Below, in pieces: positions 3,986-63,535 of a DNA stretch of 64,000 nucleotides. The translations under genes and the position numbers were made by a program. The stretch is from Psychromonas ossibalaenae ATCC BAA-1528. Lineage in GTDB: Bacteria > Pseudomonadota > Gammaproteobacteria > Enterobacterales > Psychromonadaceae. The stretch covers positions 1-64,000 of the forward strand of contig NZ_KB906978.1 in the NCBI RefSeq assembly GCF_000381745.1. Reading direction: 5' to 3'. The stretch's first letter is position 1; each line of letters begins with the position of its first letter. A model generated the notes under the pieces. It searched no databases. It saw only the letters and a list, made by a program, of their open reading frames with translations, and was not told where the DNA came from.

Positions 3986-4000
3986 CTTAAGCTAGATAGT

Positions 4001-4019: not shown

Positions 4020-4170
4020 CTTACTTATTTTTAATTACTCTTGGTCGAGCAAAGAAGATACCTACCGTTGTCACGGTTAAACCTATGCGAGTCCCTCCAG
4101 CAGCTCTGGGGGGATCACTTTTAATTAAGCTTACCCGCATCCAGGCCTGACTCCATTATTGCGTTTCTTA

Positions 4171-4200
4171 TCCCCCTTAAATAAGCGTAATTAAGGGGGA
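4171..4200. promoter_or_regulatory. Inverted repeat at the head of the conserved chitin-gene upstream block
   Basis: TCCCCCTTAA and TTAAGGGGGA form perfect 10-bp arms around a 10-base centre. It is followed directly by TTAATTTCCTTTAATTACG, which recurs with small changes at 9225 and 12645 upstream of two other chitin-binding protein genes. A related CCTCCTTA/TAAGGAGG repeat sits at the same relative place at 9187-9223. It could be an operator or a terminator of upstream transcription. Confidence 0.45.
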
Positions 4201-4240
4201 TTAATTTCCTTTAATTACGTTTTTTTATTAATTTTATCGC

Positions 4241-4276
4241 CACATACATTACGTGATGTATGTGATTTTAATCAAT
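4241..4276. promoter_or_regulatory. Palindrome and CRP-like site upstream of the GH18 chitinase
   Basis: CACATACAT and ATGTATGTG form perfect 9-bp arms around TACGTG (4241-4264). Overlapping its right arm, TGTGATTTTAATCAAT (4261-4276) matches the TGTGA-N6-TCACA consensus of CRP in the left half and TCA of the right half. The ATTTTAATCAA part is conserved upstream of the 9379 gene and, with one change, the 12773 gene. Binding is inferred, not shown. Confidence 0.4.
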
Positions 4277-4292
4277 AAAAAAGAGAATATAT

Positions 4293-7175: not shown

Positions 7176-7199
7176 CATAGTGTAATACTGTGTTTATCA

Positions 7200-7228
7200 A
7201 ACCGAGTATTTAATACTCGGTTTTTTTA
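7200..7228 (+). terminator. Rho-independent terminator after the GH18 chitinase
   Basis: AACCGAGTAT-TTA-ATACTCGGTT is a 10-bp stem with a short loop followed by seven T. It lies 25 bases after the chitinase stop, so the lipoprotein gene at 7281 probably has its own promoter or depends on read-through. Confidence 0.9.
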
Positions 7229-7280
7229 TAAATATTTCTGGGCGTGTATTGTCCATATCTCTAATCTAAAGGTATTATTT

Positions 7281-8528: not shown

Positions 8529-8822
8529 CTATTCAGCCTCATCGATAGCAAGAAGGTGAGGTATTGACCGCATTTCTAGTGCCTGGCCTGCAGAAACGTC
8601 CAGTTTTCTGCAGGCCGACAGATAACTGCAGAGCAAACAAACATTTGTGCCCTGCATACTTGCGAAAGCAATCTGAAATTTTCTGTTGACCTTTGCTCAT
8701 CCAGATATAGTTGTCGCCTTAGTCATTGGTAAACAGCACAGCAATATCTGTCATAAAGCGCAATACATCATTTGGCTAGTCTCGTCATTGTTCCAATAAC
8801 GCCTAAATTTCGTGCAGTTCAA
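8529..8822 (-). pseudogene. IS66-family TnpC transposase, degenerate C-terminal fragment
   Basis: On the minus strand, in pieces separated by stops and frameshifts: TARNL, then LLEQ-stop-RD, PNDVLRFMTDIAVLFTND, a stop, GDNYIWMSKGQQKISDCFRKYAG, and after a frameshift YLSACRKLDVSAGQALEM to a stop at 8529-8531. The expected IS66 sequence is roughly DDVLRFMTD-x-x-VPF-TNNQAE-x-DIRM-x-KVQQKISGCFR...YLSTCRKLDVSAGQALEM, so identity is clear. The catalytic Glu region (NNQAERD) is mutated and contains the stop. It begins immediately after the lipoprotein stop codon. It cannot be the missing half of the IS66 copy at 61-358, given order and orientation. Confidence 0.7.
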
Positions 8823-9186
8823 CCGTCCATGTAGACCTTGTACAGGATGATTATACCAAGAGAATTTAATTTATGATCTTTGCGGTATTCTTTCTTAATT
8901 ATTAAATAACAGCTTACCATATGAAAAATATTACCGAATAATCCCCCTCGCAAAATACAAGAAATTGAAAATCCACATTGAAAGCATGCTTGCCCACGCA
9001 TGCTCAATTTATAATGCTCCTGCCGTGTGGATGCTAACCTCGTTTTGATTTTGTAATTGCAATAGCGGGTTACTGAAGTTAATTCCTTGCTTTCATCCGT
9101 TTTTCTCCGCCTGAATAATTCAGTCTGTTAATCCTTATCTAAGCAGAGATAAAGAAAACTATATTTCAGAATAATGGCAAGACCCA
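8823..9186. other. Intergenic region without recognised genes
   Basis: Between the IS66 relic and the conserved promoter block of the next gene. A short minus-strand open frame (8819-9007) has no recognisable domain and no convincing ribosome binding site. Nothing further was recognised. Confidence 0.4.
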
Positions 9187-9378
9187 CCTCCTTAATTTTA
9201 TTAAATAAGATTAAATAAGGAGGCTTAATTTCCTTTAATCGCTTGTTTTCATTATCTTTGCCTTTGTAATTACATAAATACATTTGTAATTACATGTATG
9301 TATATATGCATAAATATAATTTTAATCAAACAGCCAAAATAAAAACTTTTCGTTGTTTAACCAAGGATCTAATAAACT
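9187..9378 (+). promoter_or_regulatory. Conserved upstream block with inverted repeat and tandem palindromes
   Basis: CCTCCTTA and TAAGGAGG (9187-9194, 9216-9223) form an inverted repeat. From about 9208 to the start codon the DNA is almost the same as 12626-12772 upstream of the next gene: TTAATTTCC-TTTAATCGCTTG, the ATAATTTTAAT stretch, AACAGCCAAAATAA and AAGGATCTAATAAACTATG. This copy has about 30 extra bases that duplicate TGTAATTACA (9265-9274 and 9285-9294), placing the two 10-bp palindromes 20 bp apart, on the same helix face. AAGGA at 9363-9367 is the ribosome binding site. Confidence 0.55.
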
Positions 9379-12351
9379 ATGAAGTTTAAACTTAGTTTAG
9401 CCAAAAAAGCAGTGTCAACCGCTTTGCTTTCTTCAGCCGTCGCAATGTCAGTCAGCAGTGGCGCATTGGCAGACGACAGTTCAGTGACCCCTTTTGTGCC
9501 TGGACAAACCAAAATTGAAAACGGTGATATGACCTCTTATGCGGGTGAGTGCTATATTGCTCAAAATAACCCCGGTGTATGGGAAACCCCAAGTCCACAA
9601 GCCACTTGGTTCTGGGCTGAAACAGATTGCCCTGATGATACTGACCCTGAAGAACCAGACCCTGATCCTGATCCTGAAGAACCTGGTGATGTTATTCCCT
9701 TTATACCAGGACAAACCAAAGTAGAAAATGGTGAAATGGTTTCTTATAAAGGCGAATGCTTCATAGCTAAAAACAGCCCGGGTGCATGGGAAACCCCAAG
9801 TGCAAACTCCTGGTTCTGGGATGCATCAGAGTGCCCTTCTAATCCACCGGTTGATGACCCAGATGGTCCAAGCACTGGACTACCACCACAAATTGATCCG
9901 CCACCGGTTGATGATCCAAGCACTGGACCACAACCACAAATTGATCCGCTTCCGCCAGTGGTAGTAGACCCAGGAAAACCTGGAACACCAATAACAGATC
10001 CTGATGATCCTGACTATCCTGGAAGACCAAATAATCCAGGTGAACCAGATGTACCACTGGAACCAGGAACCCCGCCAACAGACCCAGAAGTACCGAGGGA
10101 CTTATGTGATGAGTTCAACGTTTACCCTGACTGGACTAACGAGACACATGCAGGTACCGGCGATATCATGGTTCATGATAACATAGCGCATTCTGCAAAG
10201 TACTGGACGACTTCAGTTCCAGGTAGTGATGATAGTTGGCAGCATCACCTAAACTGTGATGGTACAGACCCAGGTACAGCTCCGCTTCTTTCGTTACCAA
10301 ACCCTATGGATCCCGTGGATTTGCAGGTCAACGGTTGGCCGAGTGATTTTGTTGCAGCCGGCCCGTCTTCAGACGCGCCTGATATGGCTACATTAGAGGC
10401 TCTCAATAGTGAAGAGCTGTCTGATGACAGAAAATTAACCACTGCTTTTGTCGAATTGATTGAGACAGCAGAAAATGCCGGCTCTTCATCGGTAATTATC
10501 AGCAGCAATGTACTTGATAATATAACCGAAGATAAAGGCGCCTCTTTGGGCACCATTGCTGTTATAAAAGCCTTAACTGAAGCTGTAGACTTCACAGGCA
10601 GCCGCATCGACATCGACGATATCAATGCACTAAGCGACGATGCGCAAGGCTGGGTTCAAGCTCATAACTTAGTAATGTCTACGCTTGCTCCTAAAGCGAC
10701 TTTCGGGTGGTCTTTAAGCATTGGTAATTTTGCTTACGGAACTCACTCAGGCAAAAGGTCTGTATGGGAGGCTGCATCTAAAGCAACGGCAGACCTGCTT
10801 GGCAGTTTCGATCTTTATGAAGGTAAAACAAAAGCTGACTTTATTGCATTCTCTAAGTCAAGTGATTCTGCCGCCTTATCAAGCGGCCAGTGGCACAACG
10901 CTTTGGAATATGTAAAACAAGTTACAGACTATGTTGAGGCACCTGCAATGTTGTCTTCAGTGCCAACGGAACAAGCTGCCGCTTACTTTATGGGCAATAC
11001 TGCTGGTGAGAGTAATATACGTAAAGCGGCTCACAGCAATATATTCGCGATTTTGTTCGACACTGATACTGTAGACTTAACAGATAAAATTAAACGCTAT
11101 CAAAGCGCTAAAGTACCGCTGTATTATGTCGGAGAGAATGTACACGATGGTCCATTAACTGTTATTGAATCACTGAACCGTGAATTAGCTGATGCAGAAG
11201 AAATCATGAATAACGATGCTTTCCTTTTCGAAACGCCGACATCAGGGTGGATTCCATCAACAGTCTATAAATGGGCAGATTTTTTAACCGGCTTAAACTC
11301 TATGCACAACATTGGTGTAGCTGGAGATACATTCTGGTTAATAGATGAAAGTGCTGACGATCAAACAAATGCTAAATACGCAAAAGTGGCTATTGCTGCA
11401 TTTTTAGCACAAAGCATGCAGGAAACTATTCGTTACAATGCCTGTGACGAGAATAACTGGGCTGAAGTAAAATACGGCGCACCAACAGACTACCCGATGA
11501 CAGCAAGTTGCGGGCAGTTAGATCAGAAATATGCTGATTACGGATTTAATCCAGAAACAGGTAGAGACCACCCTTACTCCTGCCCTCGCGACGAGAAGAT
11601 GGAAGTAAGTGCATTGACTCATGCTCAATGGTACGGCGCACCGGCTCCAATTTTTGCAGCCCCGGATGCAGTACTTGATGAGCAGGGCCTGCTTGTTAAC
11701 GGTCACGTTGGGCGCTGGACGAACAATGGTCACTGTAATGACGTGCCAACTGCAGTAGATACTTCTAAGCAGGTCTACGAACGTAATGAATGTCAAGTAT
11801 ATGAAGGTCAAAAGGCCGGCAGCTTTATCTGGGACGGCAGTAGTCAAGATAGCGTTCAAGGCTGTGGCTGGTGGGGCCGTGGTGTTATTCAAACCACAGG
11901 TCGTCAAAACTTCGGTACGCTTAACCACTTCATGGGACGCTCACACGTTGACCCTGATACTATAGGAAAAACGATTGACGGAATTACCGTTGGCGCTCCA
12001 CCTGAGAGCCCGTTATATGCTCAGTTAGATTTCTGTTCAAACCCGGGGCTAATTTGCAGCTCTGAAGAAAATAGAGAAATAAAGTGGATTGCAGGCTTGT
12101 TCTTCTGGGTAAATTCAGTGCAGGCTTACGATAATGAAAGCGGCCAACACCCAGGCTGGGATTACTACGAAGAACTTAAAAAGTATGTAGACGGCGGCAT
12201 GAAAGGTAGTCAATTTATTGATGACGTATCTGGTATCGTTAACCGCGGCTGTCCAGATTTGACTTGTGATACAGGTGACGTTCATAACGTTAAAGAGCGT
12301 CGTGATAACTTCATGAAAGTCTTGAGAAATTTAGGCCTTAATCCGCAGTAA
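9379..12351 (+). CDS. Secreted GH19-like protein with three chitin-binding-type modules and an unassigned middle domain
   Basis: Signal peptide to about residue 31 (SGALA). Two paralogous modules (about 35-85 and 103-152) share the pattern PF-x-PGQTK-x-ENG-(D/E)M-x-SY...C(Y/F)IA-x-N-x-PG-x-WE and end WFW-x-x-x-x-CP; they resemble CBM5/12. A Pro/Asp-rich linker (about 153-240) contains repeats of QIDP and DDPSTG. A third module follows (about 243-293, HSAKYWTTSVPG...W). Residues about 295-660 match nothing I recognise. The C-terminal part is GH19-like: SMQETIR with Glu682 in the catalytic position, WWGRGVIQTT (831-840), and FFWVNSVQ. It may be a chitinase or a peptidoglycan/chitosan-active relative. 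It ends at a good terminator. Confidence 0.78.
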   Translation: MKFKLSLAKKAVSTALLSSAVAMSVSSGALADDSSVTPFVPGQTKIENGDMTSYAGECYIAQNNPGVWETPSPQATWFWAETDCPDDTDPEEPDPDPDPEEPGDVIPFIPGQTKVENGEMVSYKGECFIAKNSPGAWETPSANSWFWDASECPSNPPVDDPDGPSTGLPPQIDPPPVDDPSTGPQPQIDPLPPVVVDPGKPGTPITDPDDPDYPGRPNNPGEPDVPLEPGTPPTDPEVPRDLCDEFNVYPDWTNETHAGTGDIMVHDNIAHSAKYWTTSVPGSDDSWQHHLNCDGTDPGTAPLLSLPNPMDPVDLQVNGWPSDFVAAGPSSDAPDMATLEALNSEELSDDRKLTTAFVELIETAENAGSSSVIISSNVLDNITEDKGASLGTIAVIKALTEAVDFTGSRIDIDDINALSDDAQGWVQAHNLVMSTLAPKATFGWSLSIGNFAYGTHSGKRSVWEAASKATADLLGSFDLYEGKTKADFIAFSKSSDSAALSSGQWHNALEYVKQVTDYVEAPAMLSSVPTEQAAAYFMGNTAGESNIRKAAHSNIFAILFDTDTVDLTDKIKRYQSAKVPLYYVGENVHDGPLTVIESLNRELADAEEIMNNDAFLFETPTSGWIPSTVYKWADFLTGLNSMHNIGVAGDTFWLIDESADDQTNAKYAKVAIAAFLAQSMQETIRYNACDENNWAEVKYGAPTDYPMTASCGQLDQKYADYGFNPETGRDHPYSCPRDEKMEVSALTHAQWYGAPAPIFAAPDAVLDEQGLLVNGHVGRWTNNGHCNDVPTAVDTSKQVYERNECQVYEGQKAGSFIWDGSSQDSVQGCGWWGRGVIQTTGRQNFGTLNHFMGRSHVDPDTIGKTIDGITVGAPPESPLYAQLDFCSNPGLICSSEENREIKWIAGLFFWVNSVQAYDNESGQHPGWDYYEELKKYVDGGMKGSQFIDDVSGIVNRGCPDLTCDTGDVHNVKERRDNFMKVLRNLGLNPQ

Positions 12352-27185: not shown

Positions 27186-27647
27186 TATATTATCCTGAAA
27201 TTTTAATGTTAGATTGCCTTGATAGGCCTGAATAGCGTAAAAACAGACTGGAACTTAAAAACTACAAAGCGAGGTATTAGTAATAATACAACGGAATGAA
27301 GAATGTAAACAAAAGGCTTTCTTTCCTGCTGGTGAGCACTTTATAGAATCTATATTGTAAGTCAAGCGTTGTTCGAAAAATAAACAGCCAAAATTTCTTA
27401 AACATACACTCGTGTTTAAAGACATTTTTCCGTATTTTTAGGCGTCTAAGAAAAAGTAGATAAGGTGCTTTCGTCTCCTAACTGCCTTAGAACAGATGCT
27501 GCTTATTTAAAAAGAAAATCCTTCACCTCTAGAAGCTGTTTACCTCACACAGGGTGATTTTTGCATCCGGAATGATAACGAGTATAAACCTAGAAAAAAT
27601 ATGATCTTCTCCTAAACTTGATGGTACGTTTTAGGGAAATGACAAAC
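27186..27647. other. Intergenic region: cold-shock leader and a solo MITE end
   Basis: The left part is the probable 5' leader and promoter of the minus-strand cold-shock gene. At 27555-27587 the sequence from GATTTTTGCAT through AATGATAACG to GTATA closely matches the terminal inverted repeat of the MITE-like element at 47824-48088, as a single end without its partner. ATG at 27648 has AGGGAA nine bases upstream. Confidence 0.45.
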
Positions 27648-30065
27648 ATGCTAGAAAACGATGAAATTTTCGCTTTGAGCGATGAAAATGAAAGTGAAAC
27701 AAAAAACAAAAAATCCACATTACCACCATGGAGAATAATGCTGGTTGATGATGAACCGTCTGTTCATCAGGTAACATTACTTGCTTTACGATCTTTAACA
27801 TTTGAAGGAAGAGGGCTTGAGTTTCTACATTGTTACACAGGTGGTGAAGCTAAATTGATGCTCACGGAGGAAAAAGACATTGCCCTGGTTTTTCTAGATG
27901 TCGTCATGGAAACAGAAAATGCGGGATTAGAAGTTGCCCAGTACATTCGCGAAGATCTAAAAAACAAACAAGTACGCATCATTTTACGCACCGGACAGCC
28001 AGGGAGCTTTGCTGAATCAGAAATGATGACGAGCTACGATATCAATGACTATAAAACCAAAACAGAGTTAACCAGTAAAAAATTAAAAACAACTATCATT
28101 TCTGCTCTACGTTCCTATCAGGAGTTAGATAACTCTGAGTCTTTGCGGGTAGCATTAGATAAAATGCTTAAATGTTCTTCTGAGTTAATGAGCGAAAAAT
28201 CGACGACTGAATTAATTGCAGAAATATCAGCAAGTACCGAACAGATGCTGCCGTTAGTACAAAAGTTTGAAAGCACTCCAACAGTAGTAAATATTGTCTG
28301 TTTTAACAGCGAAGACTTAAGCTGCCGTCAATCTTTTATGGAAAAAAACAACGCCAGCAGTATTTCCCCACAACTCCATCAAAAACTTAGCGATAGTTTT
28401 GCTATTGAAAATCCCCCCAGCTTTATTGATGGACAATATGCACTCTTATATATAGGCAAAACTGATCAAAAGCAGCATTATTATTTATTGTTAACATACA
28501 ACAACCCCATTGAAGAGAAAGAAACGCTGCTGCTGTTCAATTTACGAACTAATATCGAGATTATTTTTAATAATATCAGCTTAAAAGAATCATTAGAAAA
28601 TGTGAATGCTGGTTTAGAAGAGAAGGTAAAACAGCGTACTCTTGATTTTCAACAAGCTTGTGAGCGGGCAGAGCAGGCCAATCAGGCTAAAAGTAGTTTC
28701 CTCTCAAATATGAGCCATGAAATACGCACACCAATGAATGCAATATTAGGGTTCACGCAGATACTGACACGCAGTACGGATATTTCCAGTCAGCAGAAAA
28801 CAACCCTGGATAAAATAGCCAAAGCAGGTCAGCATCTATTAGGAATTATTAATGATATTCTTGAGATATCAAAAATAGAAGCGGGCGCAGCGCAGCTGAA
28901 ATTAATCGATTTTGAACTAGTGACACTATTAACAGATATAGGACAAATGTTTCAGTTTCGCTGTGAACAAAAACAGCTTAACTGGAATTTCATCAACCAC
29001 ACTGATCAATCTGTCTATGTACGCGCAGACGAGGGAAAGCTCCGCCAGATCTTAATTAATCTGCTGGGAAATTCAGTCAAATTTACCGACCAGGGTTCAA
29101 TTACATTAGTTTTAAATCAACCGTCAGCAAATATTTACCAGTTTGAAATTATCGACACAGGCGCGGGTATATCTGATGAAGAGCAGAAAAAATTGTTTCG
29201 CAATTTTTCTCAGGGAGCCGCCGGTGAAGAAAAAGGCGGAACAGGTTTAGGGCTGACTATTTCCACCAAACATATTGAAATGATGGGGGGAAAATTAACA
29301 CTGCAGTCGGAGCTAGGCAAAGGATCAACATTTTCCTTCAGCATCGAGTTAGAACGCGGTAATGAAGAAAACGCACGACAAAGTGTTCCTGAAATAGAAC
29401 AGATTAGATTAATTAAAAATCGAAAATTCAGCGCGTTATGTGTTGATGATATTGCTGAAAACCGTGAACTATTAGGGAGCGTACTCACTTCTTGCGGCAT
29501 TGACGTCACCTATGCTGAAGACGGCCTGCAGGCTGTTGAGTTAATCAAAAAACAAACATTTGACATTGTTTATATGGATCTGCTAATGCCGGTCATGCGT
29601 GGTGATGATGCGATAAAAATTATTCGAGAAGAGCTCAATCACGACAAGCTAACCTGTATTGCAGTTTCCGCTTTTAGTTTATCTCATGAAATTCAGCACT
29701 ATTTAACCATTGGTTTTGACCTTTTTATTGCCAAACCATTTTCATTTTCAGAAGTATTCAATAGTTTAATAACTTTTTTTCCTGACGATTTTGTTAAAGA
29801 AGAGCAGCAGACACCAGCTAAAAAGGTTGATAAAAAACAGGAAGATATTAATTTGTCAGAATTTATATTGTCCAGAAAAATGTTAGATGATTTAAAGTTA
29901 TCAGCCTCAATCAATCGTTCATCATATATTAAACAGCTTTTATCGGACATTGCTGTACAAAGACCGCAAAACAAAATTTATACTGATTATCTTATCCTGT
30001 TTATAGATAATTTCGATATGGCAGGCCTTGTTAAAGCATTAGAGGAAATTGAATATGAACAATAA
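27648..30065 (+). CDS. Hybrid sensor kinase: REC-DUF3369-HisKA-HATPase-REC
   Basis: Cytosolic signalling kinase, no membrane segment. An N-terminal receiver (RIMLVDDEPSVHQVT; phospho-acceptor Asp84 in FLDVVME) is followed by a DUF3369-like sensor region (about 175-310), a coiled coil (about 315-345), HisKA with SHEIRTP (His357), an HATPase domain (NLLGNSVKFTDQG; DTGAGI; GGTGLGL), and a second receiver (about 590-715; Asp644 in VYMDLLMP). A tail of about 90 residues follows. The start at 27648 has AGGGAA nine bases upstream; an in-frame TTG at 27618 is less likely. The next gene starts 11 bases before this one ends, so the two kinases are probably translated together. Confidence 0.87.
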   Translation: MLENDEIFALSDENESETKNKKSTLPPWRIMLVDDEPSVHQVTLLALRSLTFEGRGLEFLHCYTGGEAKLMLTEEKDIALVFLDVVMETENAGLEVAQYIREDLKNKQVRIILRTGQPGSFAESEMMTSYDINDYKTKTELTSKKLKTTIISALRSYQELDNSESLRVALDKMLKCSSELMSEKSTTELIAEISASTEQMLPLVQKFESTPTVVNIVCFNSEDLSCRQSFMEKNNASSISPQLHQKLSDSFAIENPPSFIDGQYALLYIGKTDQKQHYYLLLTYNNPIEEKETLLLFNLRTNIEIIFNNISLKESLENVNAGLEEKVKQRTLDFQQACERAEQANQAKSSFLSNMSHEIRTPMNAILGFTQILTRSTDISSQQKTTLDKIAKAGQHLLGIINDILEISKIEAGAAQLKLIDFELVTLLTDIGQMFQFRCEQKQLNWNFINHTDQSVYVRADEGKLRQILINLLGNSVKFTDQGSITLVLNQPSANIYQFEIIDTGAGISDEEQKKLFRNFSQGAAGEEKGGTGLGLTISTKHIEMMGGKLTLQSELGKGSTFSFSIELERGNEENARQSVPEIEQIRLIKNRKFSALCVDDIAENRELLGSVLTSCGIDVTYAEDGLQAVELIKKQTFDIVYMDLLMPVMRGDDAIKIIREELNHDKLTCIAVSAFSLSHEIQHYLTIGFDLFIAKPFSFSEVFNSLITFFPDDFVKEEQQTPAKKVDKKQEDINLSEFILSRKMLDDLKLSASINRSSYIKQLLSDIAVQRPQNKIYTDYLILFIDNFDMAGLVKALEEIEYEQ

Positions 30066-31284
30066 TCTCGTCACTATTAAAGGCAGTAAAATATTAATTG
30101 TTGACGACAAACAAGAAAACCTGGAGCTGTTAACTCAAATACTAGAAGCAGAGGGCTTTGAAATTGCCTTTGCAGTAGACGGTGAGCAGGCAATTAAAAT
30201 CGCCAACCTGTTTTTACCGCACCTTATTCTGCTGGATGTCATGATGCCGGGCATTGACGGCTTCGAAACCTGCCGACGTTTAAAATCGCTGAATGATGTC
30301 AAAGAAATTCCGGTTATTTTTGTAACAGGCAAAGCCGGCATTAGTGATGTCGTTGAGGCATTTAATGCAGGAGGGGTTGACTACGTAACAAAACCAATAC
30401 GACACGAAGAAATTTTAGCTCGTGTCAATACGCATCTGCAGCTGCAGGCACTTATATCTTTGCGTGACGAACTTATCAGCACCTTAAGAGATCAAAATAT
30501 TGAATTAGAAAAAATGAGCAGTCTAAAAGATGAGCAGCTGGAAACCGCTGTACAATTTAACCATATTGGAGAGTTAGTGGGCGAACTCACTCATGAAGTG
30601 GCTACACCGCTCGGCATAATGAATACAGCGATGAGTACCTTAGATGAACAACGTTTAACCATGGTGAAACAGCTCGACGAGAATCGTCTTTCCAAAAAAA
30701 ATCTTACCGATTTCATTGAAATGTCAGGAGAAGTTTCTGATATTGTTAATTCCAATTTAAGTCACGCTATTGATCTGGTTAACAGCTTTAAAAAGATCGT
30801 TGTCGGAGAATTCAGCCACACTAAAACTGAGTTTGTAATAAGTACATATTTAAATGATATCAAGCATATTTTACTTCCCAAGTTTAAACGCAGCGCGCAT
30901 ACACTGAAGATTGAATGCGCAAAACCAATCGTGTTTACTGCTGAAACAGGCGCCTTATCTCAGGTACTAATTAACTTAATCAGTAATGCTTTAATACATG
31001 CCTTTTCAGAAGGGCAAAACGGCAGTATTCAACTCGTTGCCAGCGAAACAGATGACGCAGTTATTCTAAATGTGATAGATGACGGCAAAGGGCTCGACGA
31101 ATCATCACTCAATAAAATTTTTGACAAGTATTATTCAACTAGAAGTGGTCAAGGTGGCAGCGGTTTAGGGCTCTACATAGTTAAGAAGCTCATAGAGAAT
31201 AATTTAAACGGGACTATAAGTGTCAAAAGTTCATTGGGTAACGGCACGCATTTTTCAATATCCATGGCCAAAAACAGCAGTTAG
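30055..31284 (+). CDS. Response-regulator/histidine-kinase fusion (REC-coiled coil-HisKA-HATPase)
   Basis: 409 residues, cytosolic. Receiver at about 5-125 (ILIVDDKQENLELL; Asp61 in LLDVMMPGIDGFE; Lys in VTKPI), a short coiled coil (about 130-165), a diverged HisKA with GELTHEVATPLG (His180), and an HATPase domain (LINLISNALIHAF; DDGKGLDE; GGSGLGLYIVKKL). It overlaps the upstream hybrid kinase, with AGAGGA as ribosome site inside that gene and ATG at 30055. This suggests a phosphorelay where the REC of one protein may receive phosphate from the other's HisKA. No output domain is visible, so the final target lies elsewhere. Confidence 0.86.
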   Translation: MNNNLVTIKGSKILIVDDKQENLELLTQILEAEGFEIAFAVDGEQAIKIANLFLPHLILLDVMMPGIDGFETCRRLKSLNDVKEIPVIFVTGKAGISDVVEAFNAGGVDYVTKPIRHEEILARVNTHLQLQALISLRDELISTLRDQNIELEKMSSLKDEQLETAVQFNHIGELVGELTHEVATPLGIMNTAMSTLDEQRLTMVKQLDENRLSKKNLTDFIEMSGEVSDIVNSNLSHAIDLVNSFKKIVVGEFSHTKTEFVISTYLNDIKHILLPKFKRSAHTLKIECAKPIVFTAETGALSQVLINLISNALIHAFSEGQNGSIQLVASETDDAVILNVIDDGKGLDESSLNKIFDKYYSTRSGQGGSGLGLYIVKKLIENNLNGTISVKSSLGNGTHFSISMAKNSS

Positions 31285-38879: not shown

Positions 38880-41675
38880 ATGCATTATTTTTGGGTACCA
38901 TTTCTACCCATGTTAGGGATTCTTGTTCCCTTACTAACCAATAAATTCAGCCGCAGTGTGTGTACGCTGGCGACCGCGATACTGCCGGCTTTAGCCCTTT
39001 GCTTCATTCTGCTTGACTTGCCCGCGGTATTTGCAGGACAGTCTTTTAGCCGGAGCATTGAGTGGATCCCGCAGTTAGGTTTGGCGCTGTCGTTTCGCCT
39101 TGACGGCTTGTCTGCATTATTCAGTTTACTGATTTTGGGCATTGGTTTGCTGGTCATTTTATATGCTCGCTACTACTTGTCTAAAAAAGACCATATGGGG
39201 CGTTTTTACTGCTACTTAATTATGTTTATGACCGCAATGCTCGGCATTGTTATGTCAAACAACATGCTGCAGCTATGGTTTTTCTGGGAATTAACCAGTA
39301 TCAGCTCGTTCTTGCTGATTGGTTTTTGGTCACACAATAGTGATGCGCGTAAAGGCGCCAGAATGGCGCTTACCATCACAGGTGCCGGCGGTTTAGCGCT
39401 ATTAGCCGGGATAATATTGTTAGGCCAGGTCGTGGGCAGTTACGATTTAGACGTCGTACTAAATAGTGGGGAACTGGTCAAACAACACCCTTATTACTTA
39501 GCTATTTTAGGTTTATTTTTAATTGGCGCATTTACTAAATCCGCACAATTCCCATTCCATTTTTGGTTACCCCACGCGATGGCGGCACCTACGCCAGTAA
39601 GTGCCTATTTGCACTCGGCCACCATGGTGAAAGCGGGCATCTTCTTACTGGCTCGTTTTTACCCGGTATTAGCGGGTACGGAAGTGTGGTTTGTGGTAGT
39701 CTCGCTAACTGGTTTATTCACCTTGTTACTGGGTGCTTATTCCGCATTATTTAAACATGATTTAAAAGGCTTGTTAGCCTACTCGACAATTAGTCATCTT
39801 GGCTTGATTGTCTTATTACTGGGTTTAAATACCCAATTAGCAGCTATTGCCGCGGTGTTTCACATCATGAACCATGCCGTTTTTAAAGCATCTTTATTTA
39901 TGGCGGCTGGTATTATTGACCATGAATCAGGCTCTCGAGATATGCGTAAGCTCAACGGCTTATGGAAATACATGCCTATCACTGCCACGTTAGCGATGGT
40001 GGCATCGGCGTCGATGGCTGGTGTGCCTTTACTCAATGGCTTTTTATCTAAAGAAATGTTCTTTGCTGAAACCTTAGATCAAAGCATTTTAGGGGCGATG
40101 TCTTGGTTAATTCCAGTATTAGCTACGATTGCAGGTGCTTTTGCAGTCGCTTACTCACTGCGTTTTATTCATGATGTTTTCTTTAACGGTGAGCCTAAGG
40201 GGTTAACCAAAACACCGCACGAGCCGCCGCGGTATATGCGTGTTCCCGTTGAAGTATTAGTCGCGATTTGTTTGTTAGTCGGTATATTTCCTAATTACAC
40301 TATTGGTCCACTGCTCAGTAGTGCGTCATTGGCGGTGCTAAATCATCCTCTACCTGAGTATAATTTGTCCCTTTGGCATGGATTTAACATTCCATTGATG
40401 ATGAGCGGGTTGGCGATTGTTGGTGGTTTAGCCATTTACCTGAACCGTAAACATTTATTTAAATTTGCAGGTAAGTTCCCGGATATTGACGCGAAAGTTG
40501 AATTTGAAGGTTATATTCAGAGCAGCGTGAAGTGGGCGCAGAAAGTAACTGCAAAATTGGAGACGGGATCCTTACAACGCTATGCTTTTCTTCTGTGTTT
40601 CTTCGCCTTACTGCTAATAGCTCCTCCCTTGTTAGAGCTAGATACCACGAGAGGAAGCCTGCCAGGCACCCCAGTAAACGGCGCAGTCATTGTAGCTGCT
40701 GTTTTATTAATAGCAGGTTCGCTAGCAACCGTAATTTGGAGCCATTACCGGCTGATTGCTTTATTAATGTTGTCGTTAGTCGGCTTAGTTGTGTCGATAA
40801 CCTTTGCTTACTTCTCGGCACCCGACTTAGCCCTTACCCAGCTCTCGGTAGAAATTGTAACGGTGATTTTGTTATTACTGGCGCTGTATTTCTTCCCTCA
40901 ACATACCCCCACCGATAAAAGTCGTCCTAATCACTTTGTTCGCGACTTGGCGGTAGCCTCTTTCATCGGCTGTATTATCGGCAGTATTTGTTTTGCCTTA
41001 ATGACCCATCCTTTGGATAGTATCTCTGAGTTCTTCCTAGCAAATGCTAAAACAGGCGGCGGCGGTACTAACGTGGTTAACGTTATTTTGGTCGATTTCC
41101 GTGGTTTTGATACCTTTGGTGAAATTACGGTACTTGGCATTGCCGCATTAGGTATTCACAAGCTAATTGCCGGCATGCGTTTGTCGATGCGCACTAAAGA
41201 TCATGATGGGCGCCCATGGGCAACAGATAAATACCCTGTATTACTCTCGGTTGTATCGCAAAGCCTGCTGCCGCTGTTCCTGCTCATTTCTGCTTATATC
41301 TTTATGCGCGGGCATAACTTACCAGGCGGTGGTTTTATTGCCGGTTTGATTACATCAATTGCTTTAATTCAGCAATACCTTGCACATGGTGTTGACTGGA
41401 TGGTTAAACGTGTGAGTGTTAGATACCACTATATGATCGCCATTGGATTAGTGACCGCCGGATTAACCGGCTTAGGCAGCTGGATGTTTGGCCGCCCGTT
41501 CTTAACCTCTTGGTTTGAATATGTATCGCTGCCCTGGATAGGTAAATTTGAACTCACCAGTGCATTGCTATTTGACCTAGGAGTTTACTTTACAGTAATC
41601 GGCGCAACCCTGCTTATATTAGCCAGCCTAGGCAAGCTAACCACTAAAGAAAGAATCAGAGAAGGAGAAAGGTAA
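38880..41675 (+). CDS. mrpA: Mrp-type Na+/H+ antiporter subunit A fused to subunit B
   Basis: Largest subunit of the hetero-oligomeric Mrp antiporter, related to NuoL of complex I. Residues about 1-760 carry the many transmembrane helices of MrpA, with the conserved proton-path pieces WELTSISSFLLIGFW (Glu), FTKSAQFPFHFWLPHAMAAPTPVSAYLHSATMVKAG, and FHIMNHAVFKASLF. The last about 150 residues (LLPLFLLISAYIFMRGHNLPGGGFIAGLI) are the MrpB domain, making a fused AB protein of 931 residues as in group 2 operons. ACGGAG precedes the start. The stop overlaps the start of mrpC, so subunits are probably translationally coupled. Confidence 0.95.
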   Translation: MHYFWVPFLPMLGILVPLLTNKFSRSVCTLATAILPALALCFILLDLPAVFAGQSFSRSIEWIPQLGLALSFRLDGLSALFSLLILGIGLLVILYARYYLSKKDHMGRFYCYLIMFMTAMLGIVMSNNMLQLWFFWELTSISSFLLIGFWSHNSDARKGARMALTITGAGGLALLAGIILLGQVVGSYDLDVVLNSGELVKQHPYYLAILGLFLIGAFTKSAQFPFHFWLPHAMAAPTPVSAYLHSATMVKAGIFLLARFYPVLAGTEVWFVVVSLTGLFTLLLGAYSALFKHDLKGLLAYSTISHLGLIVLLLGLNTQLAAIAAVFHIMNHAVFKASLFMAAGIIDHESGSRDMRKLNGLWKYMPITATLAMVASASMAGVPLLNGFLSKEMFFAETLDQSILGAMSWLIPVLATIAGAFAVAYSLRFIHDVFFNGEPKGLTKTPHEPPRYMRVPVEVLVAICLLVGIFPNYTIGPLLSSASLAVLNHPLPEYNLSLWHGFNIPLMMSGLAIVGGLAIYLNRKHLFKFAGKFPDIDAKVEFEGYIQSSVKWAQKVTAKLETGSLQRYAFLLCFFALLLIAPPLLELDTTRGSLPGTPVNGAVIVAAVLLIAGSLATVIWSHYRLIALLMLSLVGLVVSITFAYFSAPDLALTQLSVEIVTVILLLLALYFFPQHTPTDKSRPNHFVRDLAVASFIGCIIGSICFALMTHPLDSISEFFLANAKTGGGGTNVVNVILVDFRGFDTFGEITVLGIAALGIHKLIAGMRLSMRTKDHDGRPWATDKYPVLLSVVSQSLLPLFLLISAYIFMRGHNLPGGGFIAGLITSIALIQQYLAHGVDWMVKRVSVRYHYMIAIGLVTAGLTGLGSWMFGRPFLTSWFEYVSLPWIGKFELTSALLFDLGVYFTVIGATLLILASLGKLTTKERIREGER

Positions 41676-42028
41676 TGGAACTAGTCTACGCCGTGTGTGT
41701 CGGCTTCATGAGTGCCTGCGGCATCTTTTTAATGCTGCGCGGCCATACCTTTACCTTGGTAATTGGTCTCACTTTGTTGTCCTACGCTGTTAACCTGTTT
41801 CTTTTTGCCAGCGGCGGATTAACCATAGGTGCACCAGCGGTACTTAACGGCAGTGAAAATTACGCAGATCCTTTACCGCAAGCCCTGGTGCTTACTGCTA
41901 TTGTTATCGGCTTTGCCATGACTGCCTTTGCGGTAATTCTAGCAATGCGCGGACGCTCAGACATGGGGAATGACCACGTAGACGGTACGGAACCTTTCGA
42001 CCGCCTGGCTGCGGAGGAAAAATCCTAA
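41675..42028 (+). CDS. mrpC: Mrp antiporter subunit C
   Basis: 117-residue membrane protein related to NuoK, with three transmembrane helices (AVCVGFMSACGIFLML; VIGLTLLSYAVNLFLF; ALVLTAIVIGFAMTAFAVIL). The motif DPLPQALVLTAIVIG is characteristic for MrpC/MnhC. Its ATG overlaps the mrpA stop by one base and its stop overlaps the mrpD start by one base, consistent with a tightly coupled operon. Confidence 0.95.
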   Translation: MELVYAVCVGFMSACGIFLMLRGHTFTLVIGLTLLSYAVNLFLFASGGLTIGAPAVLNGSENYADPLPQALVLTAIVIGFAMTAFAVILAMRGRSDMGNDHVDGTEPFDRLAAEEKS

Positions 42029-43545
42029 TGGGTTTGTTTGATCATTTAGTTATTTTTCCGGTTTTAATACCGTTTTTCGTGGCTGTTGCTCTGCTTTTCC
42101 CAAGCTTAAATAACTCGTTAGCCAGACAAAGAGTACTGACCATTGCCGCCAGTATTTTAATGGTTGTTGTTGCGTTTGTACTGCTGTTCAAAATTAAAGA
42201 CCAAGGTATTCAAGTATATGCTCTTGGAGACTGGTCCGCGCCTTTTGGTATTATATTAGTGGCAGATGCCTTCTCGGTGTTAATGGTCTGCTTAAGTGCT
42301 GTTTTGGGCTTAGCGGTCACACTGTATGCCAGCGCCGGCGAAGATAAAAACGGCGCCTTTTTTCACCCGCTGATTATGTTCCAGTTGATGGGGATTAATG
42401 GTGCATTTTTAACTGGCGATGCGTTTAATCTATTTGTGTTTTTCGAGGTGCTGCTGATTGCCTCCTACTCACTAATGATGCATGGTGGAGGTAAACAGCG
42501 AATACAGGTTAACATCCATTATGTATTTCTTAACTTAATTGGCTCGTCGCTGTTCTTGTTTGCGTTAGGTACCTTATACGGCACTTTAGGCACACTTAAC
42601 TTCGCCGATATGGCCGATAGAATTCCGCTGCTTTCGAGTAACGAATTACTGATTACCAAATCAGGGGCATTATTGTTACTGGCTGTTTTTGGTCTGAAAG
42701 CAGCAATGCTGCCTCTACATTTCTGGCTGCCAAAAGCTTACGCGAGTACGAGTGCTCCAGTGGCCGCGCTATTCGCAATTATGACCAAAGTCGGTATTTA
42801 TAGTATTTGGCGGGTGCATGGCGTTATGTTTGGCGACCAGGCCGGTGAGCTGGCTAATATCGCCTTGCCGTGGTTATGGCCTATAGCTTTATTAACCATT
42901 GCTATTGGCGCTGTTTCTGTATTGGCTAGCAAAAGTTTGCGGGTGCTTTGTAGTAACTTGGTGATTGTATCAGTAGGTACTCTGCTGGTGACCATCAGCT
43001 TGAATACGGTACAGGCCGCTGCAGCTGGTATTTATTACTTACTGCATAGTACTGTAGCTTGTGCCGCTATGTTCTTGCTGGCGGGGGTTATTCAGCAGCA
43101 GCGCGGTAAAGCGGAAGACCGGTTTGTCACCACAAGAACAATGCCGCAGGCAGGAATTTTGGGCTTTATCTTTATCTTGCTGGCGATAGGTTTAATTGGT
43201 ATGCCGCCGCTGTCAGGCTTTGTAGGTAAAGCTTTAATTTTGCAGTCAGTGACCAAAGCAAGCCAGGCAGTTTGGGTCTGGCCGCTAATATTAGGCGCAG
43301 GACTGATTGCTTTAATCGCTTTATCACGGGCCGGCACTGCATTGTTCTGGCGAACCAACGGCGAAAACAACACCGCCTTACAAGGTCAGCCCGTTCAATA
43401 TTTAGCTATTGGCTTACTGGTAGGGATCCTGCCTTTGATGGTGATTTTTGGAGGGGCAGTGAGCGATTTTGCGCAATTGGCGGCAGAGCAGCTTAAAGCT
43501 GGTTTAAGCCTGCAGCAACTTAATGAGGTAGCCAATAATGGATAA
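42028..43545 (+). CDS. mrpD: Mrp antiporter subunit D
   Basis: 505-residue NuoM/NuoN-related antiporter-like subunit with about fourteen helices. Conserved segments include DAFNLFVFFEVLLIASYSLMM (Glu in FFEV), GLKAAMLPLHFWLPKAYASTSAPVAALFAIMTKVGIYSI and YYLLHSTVACAAMFLLAG, holding the Glu/Lys/His residues of the proton path. With subunit A it is thought to carry ion transport. Overlaps mrpE by 8 bases. Confidence 0.95.
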   Translation: MGLFDHLVIFPVLIPFFVAVALLFPSLNNSLARQRVLTIAASILMVVVAFVLLFKIKDQGIQVYALGDWSAPFGIILVADAFSVLMVCLSAVLGLAVTLYASAGEDKNGAFFHPLIMFQLMGINGAFLTGDAFNLFVFFEVLLIASYSLMMHGGGKQRIQVNIHYVFLNLIGSSLFLFALGTLYGTLGTLNFADMADRIPLLSSNELLITKSGALLLLAVFGLKAAMLPLHFWLPKAYASTSAPVAALFAIMTKVGIYSIWRVHGVMFGDQAGELANIALPWLWPIALLTIAIGAVSVLASKSLRVLCSNLVIVSVGTLLVTISLNTVQAAAAGIYYLLHSTVACAAMFLLAGVIQQQRGKAEDRFVTTRTMPQAGILGFIFILLAIGLIGMPPLSGFVGKALILQSVTKASQAVWVWPLILGAGLIALIALSRAGTALFWRTNGENNTALQGQPVQYLAIGLLVGILPLMVIFGGAVSDFAQLAAEQLKAGLSLQQLNEVANNG

Positions 43546-44038
43546 AGTGCGTAAGTTTATTTGGTTCCCCACTCCTTACCACAGTATATTGCTATGGTTA
43601 GTGTGGCAGATTCTGCATGATTTTAGTCGTGGTCACATGGTGTTAGGCGCGGTGTTTGCCATTGTTATCCCCTGGATTGTCGCACCGCTCAGTGAGAAAG
43701 AACCGGTAGCAAAAAATCCTCTCACAGTTTTGAGGTATACGTTTCGTTTACTCTTTGACATTGTGCTGTCTAATTACGACGTAGCGAAGCGCGTACTGCA
43801 GAGTAACCGTAGTTTAAGGCCGGCTTTTATTGCGGTGCCGTTAGCCATTAATGAGCCTTTGCCACTCACCATCTTTACCAGCAGTGTATCATTAACTCCT
43901 GGTACAGTGAGTGTAGAATTGTCGGATGACAGGCAATGGCTGTATGTACACGTGCTGCATCTTGAAGACGAGCAGCAGTTAATTAACCTTATCAAACGTC
44001 GTTATGAAGCGCCTTTGAAGGAGATTTTCGGATGTTAA
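43538..44038 (+). CDS. mrpE: Mrp antiporter subunit E
   Basis: 166 residues. Two N-terminal helices, then the soluble MnhE domain: DIVLSNYDVAKRVL, RPAFIAVPLAINEPLPLTIFTSSVSLTPGTVSVELS and LYVHVLHLED, which are family hallmarks (SLTPGT). Starts inside mrpD and overlaps mrpF by 7 bases. Needed for assembly of the complex in studied systems. Confidence 0.95.
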   Translation: MDKVRKFIWFPTPYHSILLWLVWQILHDFSRGHMVLGAVFAIVIPWIVAPLSEKEPVAKNPLTVLRYTFRLLFDIVLSNYDVAKRVLQSNRSLRPAFIAVPLAINEPLPLTIFTSSVSLTPGTVSVELSDDRQWLYVHVLHLEDEQQLINLIKRRYEAPLKEIFGC

Positions 44039-60777: not shown

Positions 60778-60806
60778 TGACCGCCCAAGAGGCGGTCTTT
60801 TTTTTG
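60778..60806 (+). terminator. Terminator after the GH31 gene
   Basis: GACCGCC, loop CAAGA, GGCGGTC, then eight or more T. A 7-bp GC-rich stem about 25 bases after the stop. Confidence 0.9.
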
Positions 60807-60943
60807 TACAACACGCAGCAGCTTCCCCATACCCGTTAGCAGCTCCATAATAAATGGGCCGGCTAAGTATCTGACAGTTCCCTCTCAATCCGTCAATCTG
60901 ACCTATACTCGACAAGTCTCCACTAAATTTTTTGGGAGGTTAA

Positions 60944-61612
60944 ATGTTTTTTAACCGCAGCCTGAAGCTGCTAAGCAAAGTATTAACTGTTTTTTTCTGC
61001 TTTACTGTCGGTGGCCCGGTCGAGGCGGCAGTATTAAAGATTCAGGCGATCGATCAACAGAACAAACCCGTGGAAAATGCGGTTATTACTGCAACTCCGT
61101 TGTTTTCTAAAGTTGAAATCGTTAAACAGACAAAAATTATCGATCAGATCAATAAAGAATACGTTCCCCGTGTAGTCATAATCAGCAAAGGCTCGTCAGT
61201 CAAATTTCCCAATAAAGACAATATAAGGCATCACGTTTATTCATTTTCTAAAGCGAAACAGTTTGAGCTGCCGTTATATGAAGGCAGTACGGCACCACCG
61301 GTCGAATTTAACAGCGAAGGCACGGTTACTTTAGGCTGTAATATTCACGACTGGATGCGCGGTTACGTTTATATCAGTGAGACTCCTTTCGCCGCGTTAA
61401 CCGACAAAAAAGGGGCTGCTGTAATTCAGGAGCTAACGGAAGAAACCTATCGAGTTGATTTCTGGCATCCGCGCTTAAAAAAAACACTTATCTCCCGTGA
61501 GATTAAACTGCAGCAGGATTCTATTGAAACCGTCAAAATCAGACTACAGCTCAAGCAGTTAATCAAGAAAAGACAAAAAATGAAAACGCGCTTCGGCCGC
61601 TACTCCGATTAA
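60944..61612 (+). CDS. Periplasmic cupredoxin-like (methylamine-utilisation type) protein
   Basis: 222 residues with a signal peptide (about 1-28, VEAA). The middle (about 75-145) is a type 1 copper fold: IISKGSSVKFPNKD, HHVYSF with His96/His97, and GCNIHDWM with Cys132, His135 and Met138 as copper ligands. The C-terminus (AALTDKKGAAVIQELTEETYRVDFWHP) resembles a carboxypeptidase-like/Ig regulatory fold. Such proteins are annotated as methylamine utilisation proteins but no such pathway is present here. GGGAGG precedes the start. The nucleotide cyclase gene starts 12 bases after it, so the two form an operon. Confidence 0.85.
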   Translation: MFFNRSLKLLSKVLTVFFCFTVGGPVEAAVLKIQAIDQQNKPVENAVITATPLFSKVEIVKQTKIIDQINKEYVPRVVIISKGSSVKFPNKDNIRHHVYSFSKAKQFELPLYEGSTAPPVEFNSEGTVTLGCNIHDWMRGYVYISETPFAALTDKKGAAVIQELTEETYRVDFWHPRLKKTLISREIKLQQDSIETVKIRLQLKQLIKKRQKMKTRFGRYSD

Positions 61613-61624
61613 TCATGCCCCGAT

Positions 61625-63535
61625 ATGACTATGCAGTTTAAACGCTTCCAAACCCGTCTGATTGTCTTCTTTGTTGCGCTGCTGGCACTGCTGCAGCTGA
61701 CCGTCTTTTTAGCAGTTAATGATGCGAACATTCGTAATGCCAGGCAGGTTATTAAAGAAAACCTGCAGGTCGGCTCAAGTGTATTTAACCGGCTGATTGA
61801 AGAAAGAACACGTAACCTGTTCCAGCACGCCAGGCTGATTTCTTCTGATTATGCTTTTAAACCGGCATTTTATTCTGATGACCGGCCTACAATTTTATCC
61901 GCCCTGGAGAATCACCTACAGCGCATAGAAGATGCCGACATTATGTTACTGGTCGATTTAGATTTAAAAATCATCGCCGATACCCGCAGTCCTGAAATAA
62001 CAAGCGAAACAGTCGCCTGGCCGGCGCTGATTGAAAGAGCAGAGCAGAATGATTACGCCGAAGCGACCGCTGTTGTTCTGATCGAGAATCTGCCTTTTCA
62101 GATAATCGTTGTGCCTTACCTCTCCCCTGATATTAACGCCTGGATATTATTAGGTTTTGCGATCGACCAGCAGGTGGCAGATGACCTTAAGCAGATGATC
62201 AACAGCGAAATTTCATTTTTTGTTTCCTCCGACAGTAAGCAGTGGAGACTTACCCGGAGCACGCTTGATAAAGATAAAGCCGGCAGCTTAATGCGTAAAA
62301 ACAAACAGCAGGAACTGTCTTTTAATCAGGGGCAGACTTTCACTCTTGATGACGAAGAATATATCGTTTTATACACACAGCTGGCAGAAAATAAAACCGT
62401 TTTCGCCATGCTGCAGCGATCGCTGGATCAAGCATTAAAACCTTACTTAAGGCTCAGACAGACATTACAGATATTAATGCTGTTCGGACTGCTTCTCTCT
62501 TTGCTGGGCGCACTGTTTATTGCCAGGAAAGTAACCAAGCCGGTTAAGGCCCTAACGCTTAGCGTGCAGAAGATTGAACAGGGTGATTACCATACAAAAA
62601 TCATCACTGAGCAGAAAGATGAAATCGGCCAGCTGGCCGGCTCCTTTAACCAGATGGCAAAAGGACTCGAAGAAAAAGAAAAAGTCAGAAACCTGCTTGG
62701 AAAAGTTGTCTCCAAAGAAGTTGCAGAGGAGCTTCTGTGTAGAAAAATAGAATTAGGCGGTGAAGAAAAACAAGCGACCATACTGTTTTCCGATATTCGG
62801 GACTTTACCAGCCTTTGTGAAGGTGCGCCAGCACAGGAAATATTAACAATGTTAAATGTTTATTTAACCAAAATGAGTGCCGTTATCGAGATTAATCATG
62901 GAGTTATTGATAAATATATCGGTGATGCCATTATGGCGCTTTTCGGTGTCCCCGTTAACCACGGTAATGACGCACATAATGCCGTTGCCACGGCAATAGC
63001 AATGAATCAGGCACTGCAGAAACTAAATAAAGATAAATTCGGCAAGGCAATAAAAATTGGCATCGGCTTAAATACCGGCCGGGTCGTTGCGGGAAATATG
63101 GGATCGCCGGACCGCCTCAACTACACCGTTATCGGTGATGATGTTAATCTAGCTTCAAGACTAGAAGGTCTGACTAAATTTTATGATTTACCGGTTTTAG
63201 TCAGTGAATCAACCCGAACTGCCGCCGACAGCTTTGTTTATCAGGAGATTGACCGGGTTCGGGTAAAAGGTAAACAAAATGCCGTTGCCATTTACAGACC
63301 AGTCGCTCTATTATCACAAATCAGCCAGCCACAGTGGCTAGAAGTTGAAATATGCAGCACTATGTTAAGCGCTTACCGGGCTCAGAAATGGGAGAAAGCG
63401 CTTGAACAGCTGGATCAATTAGCGCTAATCGAAGACAGTGAATTTTGTCAAATATACCGGCAGCGTATCGCTATTTTCCAAGTGTCGCCGCCCCCACAGG
63501 ACTGGGATTTTACTTTTGAATTTACAGAAAAATAA
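61625..63535 (+). CDS. Membrane class III adenylate/guanylate cyclase with HAMP domain
   Basis: 636 residues. Transmembrane segment 1 at about 8-30, a periplasmic sensor region (about 31-280; double-Cache-like, containing ADIMLLVDLDLKIIADT), segment 2 at about 282-305 (LMLFGLLLSLLGALFIAR), HAMP at about 306-360 (VQKIEQGDYHTKI, GQLAGSFNQMAKGLEEKE), and a cyclase catalytic domain (about 380-550): metal-binding Asp390 in LFSDIRDFT, Asp434 in YIGDAIMALFG, and GIGLNTGRVVAGNMGSPDRLNYTVIGDDVNLASRLE. The product is probably cAMP. Operon with the cupredoxin upstream, suggesting a copper or redox signal sensed in the periplasm. Confidence 0.9.
   Translation: MTMQFKRFQTRLIVFFVALLALLQLTVFLAVNDANIRNARQVIKENLQVGSSVFNRLIEERTRNLFQHARLISSDYAFKPAFYSDDRPTILSALENHLQRIEDADIMLLVDLDLKIIADTRSPEITSETVAWPALIERAEQNDYAEATAVVLIENLPFQIIVVPYLSPDINAWILLGFAIDQQVADDLKQMINSEISFFVSSDSKQWRLTRSTLDKDKAGSLMRKNKQQELSFNQGQTFTLDDEEYIVLYTQLAENKTVFAMLQRSLDQALKPYLRLRQTLQILMLFGLLLSLLGALFIARKVTKPVKALTLSVQKIEQGDYHTKIITEQKDEIGQLAGSFNQMAKGLEEKEKVRNLLGKVVSKEVAEELLCRKIELGGEEKQATILFSDIRDFTSLCEGAPAQEILTMLNVYLTKMSAVIEINHGVIDKYIGDAIMALFGVPVNHGNDAHNAVATAIAMNQALQKLNKDKFGKAIKIGIGLNTGRVVAGNMGSPDRLNYTVIGDDVNLASRLEGLTKFYDLPVLVSESTRTAADSFVYQEIDRVRVKGKQNAVAIYRPVALLSQISQPQWLEVEICSTMLSAYRAQKWEKALEQLDQLALIEDSEFCQIYRQRIAIFQVSPPPQDWDFTFEFTEK

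Follow-up and report, generated by a model that had tools for sequence, protein, structure and literature searches.

A small exported protein resembling the blue copper proteins is encoded just ahead of a membrane-bound nucleotide cyclase in the window (the whole stretch of 64,000 nucleotides that was analysed). Proteins with a type 1 copper site are familiar as carriers of electrons and are not, to our knowledge, established as inputs to signalling. The locus raises the question of whether the two proteins form a functional pair and, if so, what the first reports to the second. The earlier note had proposed that the state of the copper protein is passed to the cyclase, and the arrangement on which it built is as described: the open reading frame for the copper protein (P0001, 222 aa) occupies positions 60944-61612, that for the cyclase (P0002, 636 aa) occupies positions 61625-63535, both lie on the + strand, and 12 bases separate the stop of the first from the start of the second. 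The features of the locus are as follows.

60779 to 60797, + strand: intrinsic-terminator-like hairpin followed by a T run, 3' of the GH31 gene and between that gene and the pair.
60891 to 60923, + strand: block GTCAATCTGxCCTATACTCGACAxGTCTCCA, 5' of the P0001 gene and kept in genome G023.
60944 to 61612, + strand: P0001, cupredoxin-like exported protein, 222 aa (open reading frame, AlphaFold2 model, Foldseek).
61028 to 61099, + strand: putative first half (aa 29-52) of a split CarboxypepD_reg/transthyretin-like sandwich (model strands 29-36 and 47-52; nesting deduced).
61106 to 61381, + strand: predicted cupredoxin domain (about aa 55-146), inserted in the sandwich (NCBIfam, amicyanin alignment, model, Foldseek).
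61229 to 61231, + strand: codon of His96, predicted first copper ligand (amicyanin alignment, conservation).
61337 to 61357, + strand: Cys132-N-I-His135-D-W-Met138, the other predicted type 1 copper ligands (sequence, conservation).
61382 to 61549, + strand: putative CarboxypepD_reg-like second half (aa 147-202) with a Trp174-His175-Pro176 motif (sub-cut-off Pfam match, model, conservation).
61625 to 63535, + strand: P0002, membrane sensor cyclase, 636 aa (open reading frame, Pfam).
61751 to 62386, + strand: periplasmic dCache_3-like sensor (aa 43-254; Pfam), the part common to GGDEF-EAL and histidine-kinase partners elsewhere.
62516 to 62674, + strand: HAMP domain (aa 298-350; Pfam).
62768 to 63283, + strand: class III nucleotide cyclase domain (aa 382-553; Pfam, residue alignment).

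The hairpin upstream and the placement of the next gene downstream, DUF535, on the opposite strand make the pair resemble a two-gene unit. A similar hairpin is present in the printed intergenic sequence of the sister genome G023, which belongs to the same genus and carries both genes again behind the same GH31 gene. The conserved block at 60891-60923 is a possible promoter, though it is absent from the list produced by the promoter scanner. Comparison of the window with G023 gives dN/dS values of 0.20 (copper protein) and 0.11 (cyclase), indicating that both genes are under purifying selection.

Elsewhere the window holds a chitin-related cluster with GH19 and GH18 chitinases and a CBM_5_12_2 protein (1038-12351), a DUF3369 hybrid histidine kinase followed by a receiver-HATPase protein with a metallo-hydrolase and a chemotaxis receptor nearby (27618-31284), and genes for an Mrp/Mnh-type cation/proton antiporter (38880-44038). 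A Pfam scan covered 36 of the 56 window open reading frames of at least 100 aa, many of the 56 overlapping. Neither a methylamine family, as the earlier note had said of the neighbourhood, nor a copper-resistance family was found among those 36.

P0001 has a single hydrophobic segment (aa 13-31) that is consistent with a signal peptide. Its Pfam matches are all below threshold, the best being CarboxypepD_reg over aa 147-202, and its one NCBIfam match is a weak one to amicyanin (20.2 bits; cut-off 110.2). The AlphaFold2 model, built from a 39-row alignment, has a mean pLDDT of 90 and a pTM of 0.82. When used as a Foldseek query, it retrieves amicyanin, pseudoazurin, and plastocyanin at E-values of 1e-5 to 2e-4, and matches NirK too. 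The modelled fold is that of a cupredoxin. Because strands 29-36 and 47-52 and those after residue 150 flank this domain, we read it as an insertion in a CarboxypepD_reg/transthyretin-like sandwich, a nesting suggested by the list of structural elements and the partial Pfam match.

The copper ligands can be assigned from conservation. Cys132, His135, and Met138 are retained in 15/15 rows of alignment A1, which was collected without a motif and comprises 15 of 18 places (the three excluded were one near-duplicate, one small cupredoxin of another kind, and one truncated copy). They also occur in 80/80 named relatives, the best 80 of at least 572, although the scan patterns had partly selected for these regions. 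The earlier note chose these three residues correctly, and its description of a type 1 copper protein agrees with the predicted fold and the conserved ligand set, but its first ligand, His97, should be His96. Residue 96 is His in 15/15 motif-free relatives and in all of the best 80 of at least 572 named ones, whereas residue 97 is His in 62 of these 80. In an alignment with amicyanin, moreover, His96 falls on the His of the shared motif, a residue that we take to be a ligand in that protein. Thus, a complete predicted type 1 set, His-Cys-His-Met, appears to be present in P0001, and copper is presumably held there. Trp174, within the putative second half of the sandwich, is likewise Trp in 80/80 named relatives (best 80 of at least 572).

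P0002 proves to be a membrane cyclase with a periplasmic part and a HAMP domain, as had been claimed. It has transmembrane segments at about 7-36 and 279-304, a borderline third hydrophobic window (148-167) that lies within the Cache domain, and Pfam matches to dCache_3 (42.8 bits; cut-off 25.7), HAMP (51.9 bits; cut-off 25), and the class III cyclase family. Asp390 and Asp434 presumably bind metal and Lys430 and Thr501 the purine, and we likewise take Asn508 and Arg512 to have their usual cyclase roles. In an alignment of the window cyclase with 21 of the 24 named cyclase partners (A7), D390, D434, N508, and R512 are found in 22/22 sequences, K430 in 21/22, and T501 in 20/22. The catalytic residues of P0002 are intact by this comparison. 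The Lys430/Thr501 pair equals that of Pseudomonas aeruginosa CyaB (3r5g), although the top-scoring adenylate cyclase, 6fht, does not have Thr at the corresponding position. Such a Lys/Thr pair marks adenylate rather than guanylate cyclases, and on these residues the product is probably cAMP. Besides P0002, the genome encodes one class I adenylate cyclase and yields five further class III-type and two CRP-type matches, which makes cAMP signalling plausible in this organism.

The survey of gene neighbours that the earlier note had suggested, in which the pairing was expected to break down if the idea were wrong, shows the opposite. Among 60 sampled relatives, 15 carry the copper protein in addition to the window genome; within the genus, it occurs in 6 of 24 genomes, a count that includes the window genome and one genome with a different, small cupredoxin. 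In 14 of the 18 regions from the window genome and its relatives, the copper protein has a P0002 sensor homologue no more than about 60 bases away; none was found in the other 4 within the stretch examined. Of the 14 sensor proteins, 3 are cyclases and 11 are of the GGDEF-EAL type.

A scan of named genomes yielded at least 572 copper-protein relatives, of which the best-scoring 80, many from Pseudomonas, were analysed. The same dCache-HAMP sensor accompanies 73 of these best 80, and no sensor was found in the stretch examined at the other 7. Nine phyla are named among the best 80, eight of them with the sensor; Pseudomonadota account for 64 of the 80, and metagenome bins supply many of the records. 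Sensors were counted with a profile derived from these same loci, following a first BLASTP search with P0002. The outputs attached to the sensors of the best 80 loci are GGDEF-EAL (43), class III cyclase (24), histidine kinase (2), and unreadable because split or truncated (4). Most partner output types were assigned by homology to P0002, L045, or L073, and Pfam confirmed the outputs of P0002, L045, L073, L178, L054, and L105, including the histidine-kinase domains of the kinase partners. The idea in the earlier note is thus supported in part; it survives the check that the note had set, and it is extended by the GGDEF-EAL and kinase versions and by the barrel and globin partners of other genomes, none of which the note had included.

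Gene order also varies among the 80 loci (copper protein then sensor; barrel, copper protein, sensor; sensor, barrel, copper protein; sensor then copper protein; and divergent sensors), which identifies the copper protein and the periplasmic sensor as the core of the module. No fusion of the copper protein to a sensor or to a barrel was found in the fetched loci, and none of 18 viral stretches that matched the pattern encodes a copper-protein relative.

The link was also approached from the sensor side, by searching 274 genomes of the class with the sensor part lacking HAMP (E <= 1e-15). This gave 24 matches in 23 genomes. For 18 of the 24, a copper protein (E <= 1e-10) adjoins the sensor or lies no more than ~2.4 kb away on that contig. 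A further match has a weaker copper protein (E 8e-9), bringing the total to 19/24; four have no copper protein on the same contig, and one match starts at a contig end. Conversely, among 22 copper-protein places of at least 100 bits in the 274 genomes, the sensor is alongside in 18 and was not found alongside in 4. Weaker cupredoxin matches in these genomes occur mostly in other settings, so the link between copper protein and sensor is strong, not absolute. Given that the pairing recurs in relatives, in named loci, and in this reverse test, and that dN/dS is 0.20 and 0.11, we reject the reading of the two genes as chance neighbours. It is well supported that the pair is a real, widely conserved module.

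Trees were built for 81 of 98 loci, those in which both proteins were found and the output was readable. A careful tree of the 81 sensor domains requires 4 output changes, versus a shuffled mean of 24.7, and places the window sensor with three other cyclases (support 100/99) and one kinase with two GGDEF-EAL rows (support 99/98). Its well-supported branches alone force fewer changes (GGDEF-EAL 2, cyclase 1, kinase 2), such that a single origin of the cyclases is possible. A quick tree of the copper proteins gives 10 changes, and we relied on the careful sensor tree instead. The other alignments comprised 40 chosen rows (A2), 39 chosen rows (A6), and 34 sensors (A8).

The aligned sensors bear on where a metal might reside. 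Among the 34, no Cys, His, Met, or Trp is invariant, the commonest being Trp173 (29/34) and His97 (23/34). This makes a metal of the sensor's own unlikely, and the partner would be the likelier source of metal or redox information. The sensor does have conserved polar residues: Asp75 and Arg100 are invariant, and Thr89, Ser92, and Asn96 are nearly so.

Further partners join the pair in many species. At 72 of the best 80 of at least 572 named loci, a predicted outer-membrane beta-barrel is also encoded, and it falls into one of three families: a family of ~300 aa in 41 (two members tested have no Pfam match), DUF3034 in 29, and a ~420-aa family in 2. The last of these is found in 10 of the 18 regions. 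Comparison of the three families with hhalign revealed no convincing relationship (probabilities 1.3, 2.6 and 0.2%). The model of the ~300-aa family has a signal helix and 12 long strands (pLDDT 87.6) and resembles outer-membrane channels, best 4rl8; the sole match under 0.001 in a PDB profile search is the autotransporter EstA (E 1.2e-4). A PDB profile search with the ~420-aa family gave no informative match. The DUF3034 and ~420-aa families are less surely barrels, a prediction from their aromatic C-termini.

A truncated globin is encoded in 28 of the best 80 of at least 572 named loci. All 28 belong to the DUF3034 type, and Pseudomonas stands in the title of 21. PF01152 was confirmed in five members. 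Among 30 globin rows, a loose lipobox pattern occurs in 27, and one His and two Cys are kept in all 30; the His is presumably the proximal haem ligand. Truncated globins are usually thought to be cytoplasmic. The globins of L063, L028, L178, and others, encoded with DUF3034 and the copper protein, have export or lipoprotein-like signals as well as the two conserved Cys.

Comparable gene sets occur on plasmids of Caballeronia and Novosphingobium. On a further plasmid from Caballeronia, the annotation gives the sensor gene as a short fragment, and a Comamonas plasmid carries the pair with no globin in the stretch. Of 51 plasmid records with a match, 15 are listed, and 9 of these 15 bear the annotation "methylamine utilization protein."

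No third gene lies beside the window pair. The ~300-aa and ~420-aa barrel families are absent from the window genome under searches that matched 2/2 and 3/3 control genomes, and the globin is absent under a search that matched 4/14 controls. A DUF3034 search of the window genome gave no match, and its control genomes were equally silent. The window copy is a minimal two-gene form of the module.

Two other arrangements were encountered. In L164 and L166, a lipoprotein-like copper protein with a linker of ~130 residues before the cupredoxin adjoins a sensor gene and looks tethered. In L041 (1783-5421, from the window's genus), L174, and L175, a different small plastocyanin-like protein (~104-108 aa) clusters with a MauG-type di-haem peroxidase and/or c-type cytochromes, and also with a PAS-GGDEF protein in L041 and a chemotaxis receptor in L175. 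These clusters are perhaps a second, independent arrangement of copper protein and signalling.

What, then, might pass between the two proteins? We consider it fairly probable that they form a relay across the envelope, in which the metal or redox state of the copper protein sets the Cache sensor and, here, alters cAMP, the window pair being a minimal form of the widespread module. Exported P0001 would hold copper at a type 1 site formed by His96, Cys132, His135, and Met138, and would dock on or leave the periplasmic double-Cache region of P0002 according to whether copper is present and whether it is oxidised or reduced. The change in the Cache region would pass via HAMP to the class III cyclase and thereby alter cAMP. 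Elsewhere, this combination of copper protein and sensor would act on GGDEF-EAL or histidine-kinase outputs; an outer-membrane beta-barrel accompanies it there, and one large group adds an exported truncated haemoglobin. In this account, we infer the binding of copper, the contact between the proteins, the nature of the signal (redox or copper), the sign of regulation, and the cAMP product. The copper protein has an invariant ligand set and is the usual companion of the sensor, and the simplest account is that the Cache region reads its state by contact. That this state is what is passed on is plausible given the invariant ligands, the exported globin at 28/80 loci, and the sensors without an invariant Cys, His, Met, or Trp. 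Counting against the relay, no copper protein is fused to a sensor among the loci fetched, some copper proteins and sensors were found without each other (7/80 loci, 4/18 regions, 4/22 copper-protein places, and 4/24 sensor matches), weaker cupredoxin relatives turn up in other settings, and the copper protein is present in just 15/60 sampled relatives.

The barrel and exported globin partners suggest a cue in the chemistry of the periplasm, either redox or gas (O2/NO), or else in copper supply. The exported globin, present at roughly one locus in three, favours redox or gas over copper loading. A broader form of the relay, possible but less likely than not, is that these loci define a class of envelope sensor in which a blue copper protein, with an exported haem globin in many species, reads redox, O2, or NO together with the barrel and a Cache sensor conveys the reading to cAMP, c-di-GMP, or a phosphorelay; the window would then hold a stripped-down cAMP version.

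Two alternatives dispense with parts of the relay. In one, which we judge unlikely, the copper protein is an electron carrier, or serves in an NO or O2 chain with the barrel and globin, while the Cache domain independently binds a small molecule of the pathway, with no direct relay; the two genes would then be co-transcribed as parts of a shared process. Other small cupredoxins do adjoin MauG-type peroxidases and cytochromes c, and the conserved polar sensor residues (Asp75 and Arg100; Thr89, Ser92, and Asn96) could form a ligand pocket. However, the ~300-aa and ~420-aa barrel families and the globin were not found in the window genome, leaving the pair alone, and elsewhere the sensor is retained while outputs and other partners change.

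In the other, which overlaps with the relay and also strikes us as improbable, the module senses copper availability, such that P0001 reports its own copper loading (apo versus holo) rather than redox or gas. The copper ligands are invariant, and a metal load linked to the sensor needs no electron partner. Nevertheless, type 1 copper sites are electron-transfer sites, the exported globin partners suggest redox or gas, and no copper-resistance family was found among the 36 window open reading frames scanned. Finally, it is extremely improbable, and we reject, that P0001 is an ordinary amicyanin of methylamine metabolism beside an unrelated cyclase, a reading that draws on its similarity to amicyanin and the annotated name of its relatives but conflicts with the sub-cut-off score (20.2 versus 110.2 bits), the predicted extra split domain, the conserved signalling partner, and the lack of a methylamine family among the same 36.

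DUF3034, the exported truncated globins, and the proteins commonly annotated "methylamine utilization protein" would all gain a function from a conserved core of copper protein and Cache sensor, one that would stand in common behind cAMP, c-di-GMP, and kinase outputs. The recurrence of this core with differing inner enzymes suggests that copper, gases, or redox can be sensed across the envelope by a route not described in the open-licence literature searched. With two genes, the reading of periplasmic redox or copper by cells would become directly testable.

P0001 resembles amicyanin, pseudoazurin, and plastocyanin in its predicted cupredoxin fold and His-Cys-His-Met ligand set. It differs from them in that its cupredoxin is apparently nested in a CarboxypepD_reg-like domain and in that its conserved neighbour is a signalling protein. 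The use of a separate periplasmic protein to feed a membrane sensor is known from NspS-MbaA and LuxPQ, where the periplasmic proteins are ligand-binding proteins of the transporter type, not copper proteins.

The closest likeness in outline is to YfiBNR and HmsCDE. In these, redox-responsive periplasmic proteins, YfiR (PMC3375315) and HmsC (PMC5550408), act on inner-membrane second-messenger enzymes, with a HAMP domain and the outer-membrane protein YfiB in the former system. The module likewise pairs a periplasmic protein with an inner-membrane second-messenger enzyme, and shares with YfiBNR the HAMP domain and, elsewhere but not in the window, an outer-membrane partner. In contrast, its periplasmic part is a predicted type 1 copper protein, its outer-membrane part is a beta-barrel (or none, as in the window) rather than a lipoprotein such as YfiB, its sensor is dCache_3-like rather than PAS as in YfiN, and its output is a cyclase, a GGDEF-EAL protein, or a histidine kinase. 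P0001 is not YfiR-like, having no Pfam match over the cut-off and a modelled cupredoxin fold, and the third partner elsewhere is not a YfiB-type lipoprotein but a 12-strand beta-barrel in the one family modelled. Because the proteins belong to other families, the module is not a member of the YfiBNR group.

As for the output, P0002 resembles CyaC of Shewanella oneidensis, which is described as a membrane-bound adenylate cyclase and the main source of cAMP for Crp (PMC4412017); the product of P0002 is predicted from sequence. We found no description of the pair of copper protein and Cache sensor in the open-licence literature. The accessible text of a review of c-di-GMP stimuli (PMC8846402) mentions neither copper, cupredoxin, nor plastocyanin, but it does not mention YfiR either, so its silence says little.

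Cache sensors were previously thought to be cofactor-independent, and a report on haem-binding Cache domains of the DUF3365 type places haem within the Cache domain itself (PMC12889525). The module would be like these in linking a Cache domain to a redox or gas cofactor and unlike them in that the cofactor would sit in a separate protein.
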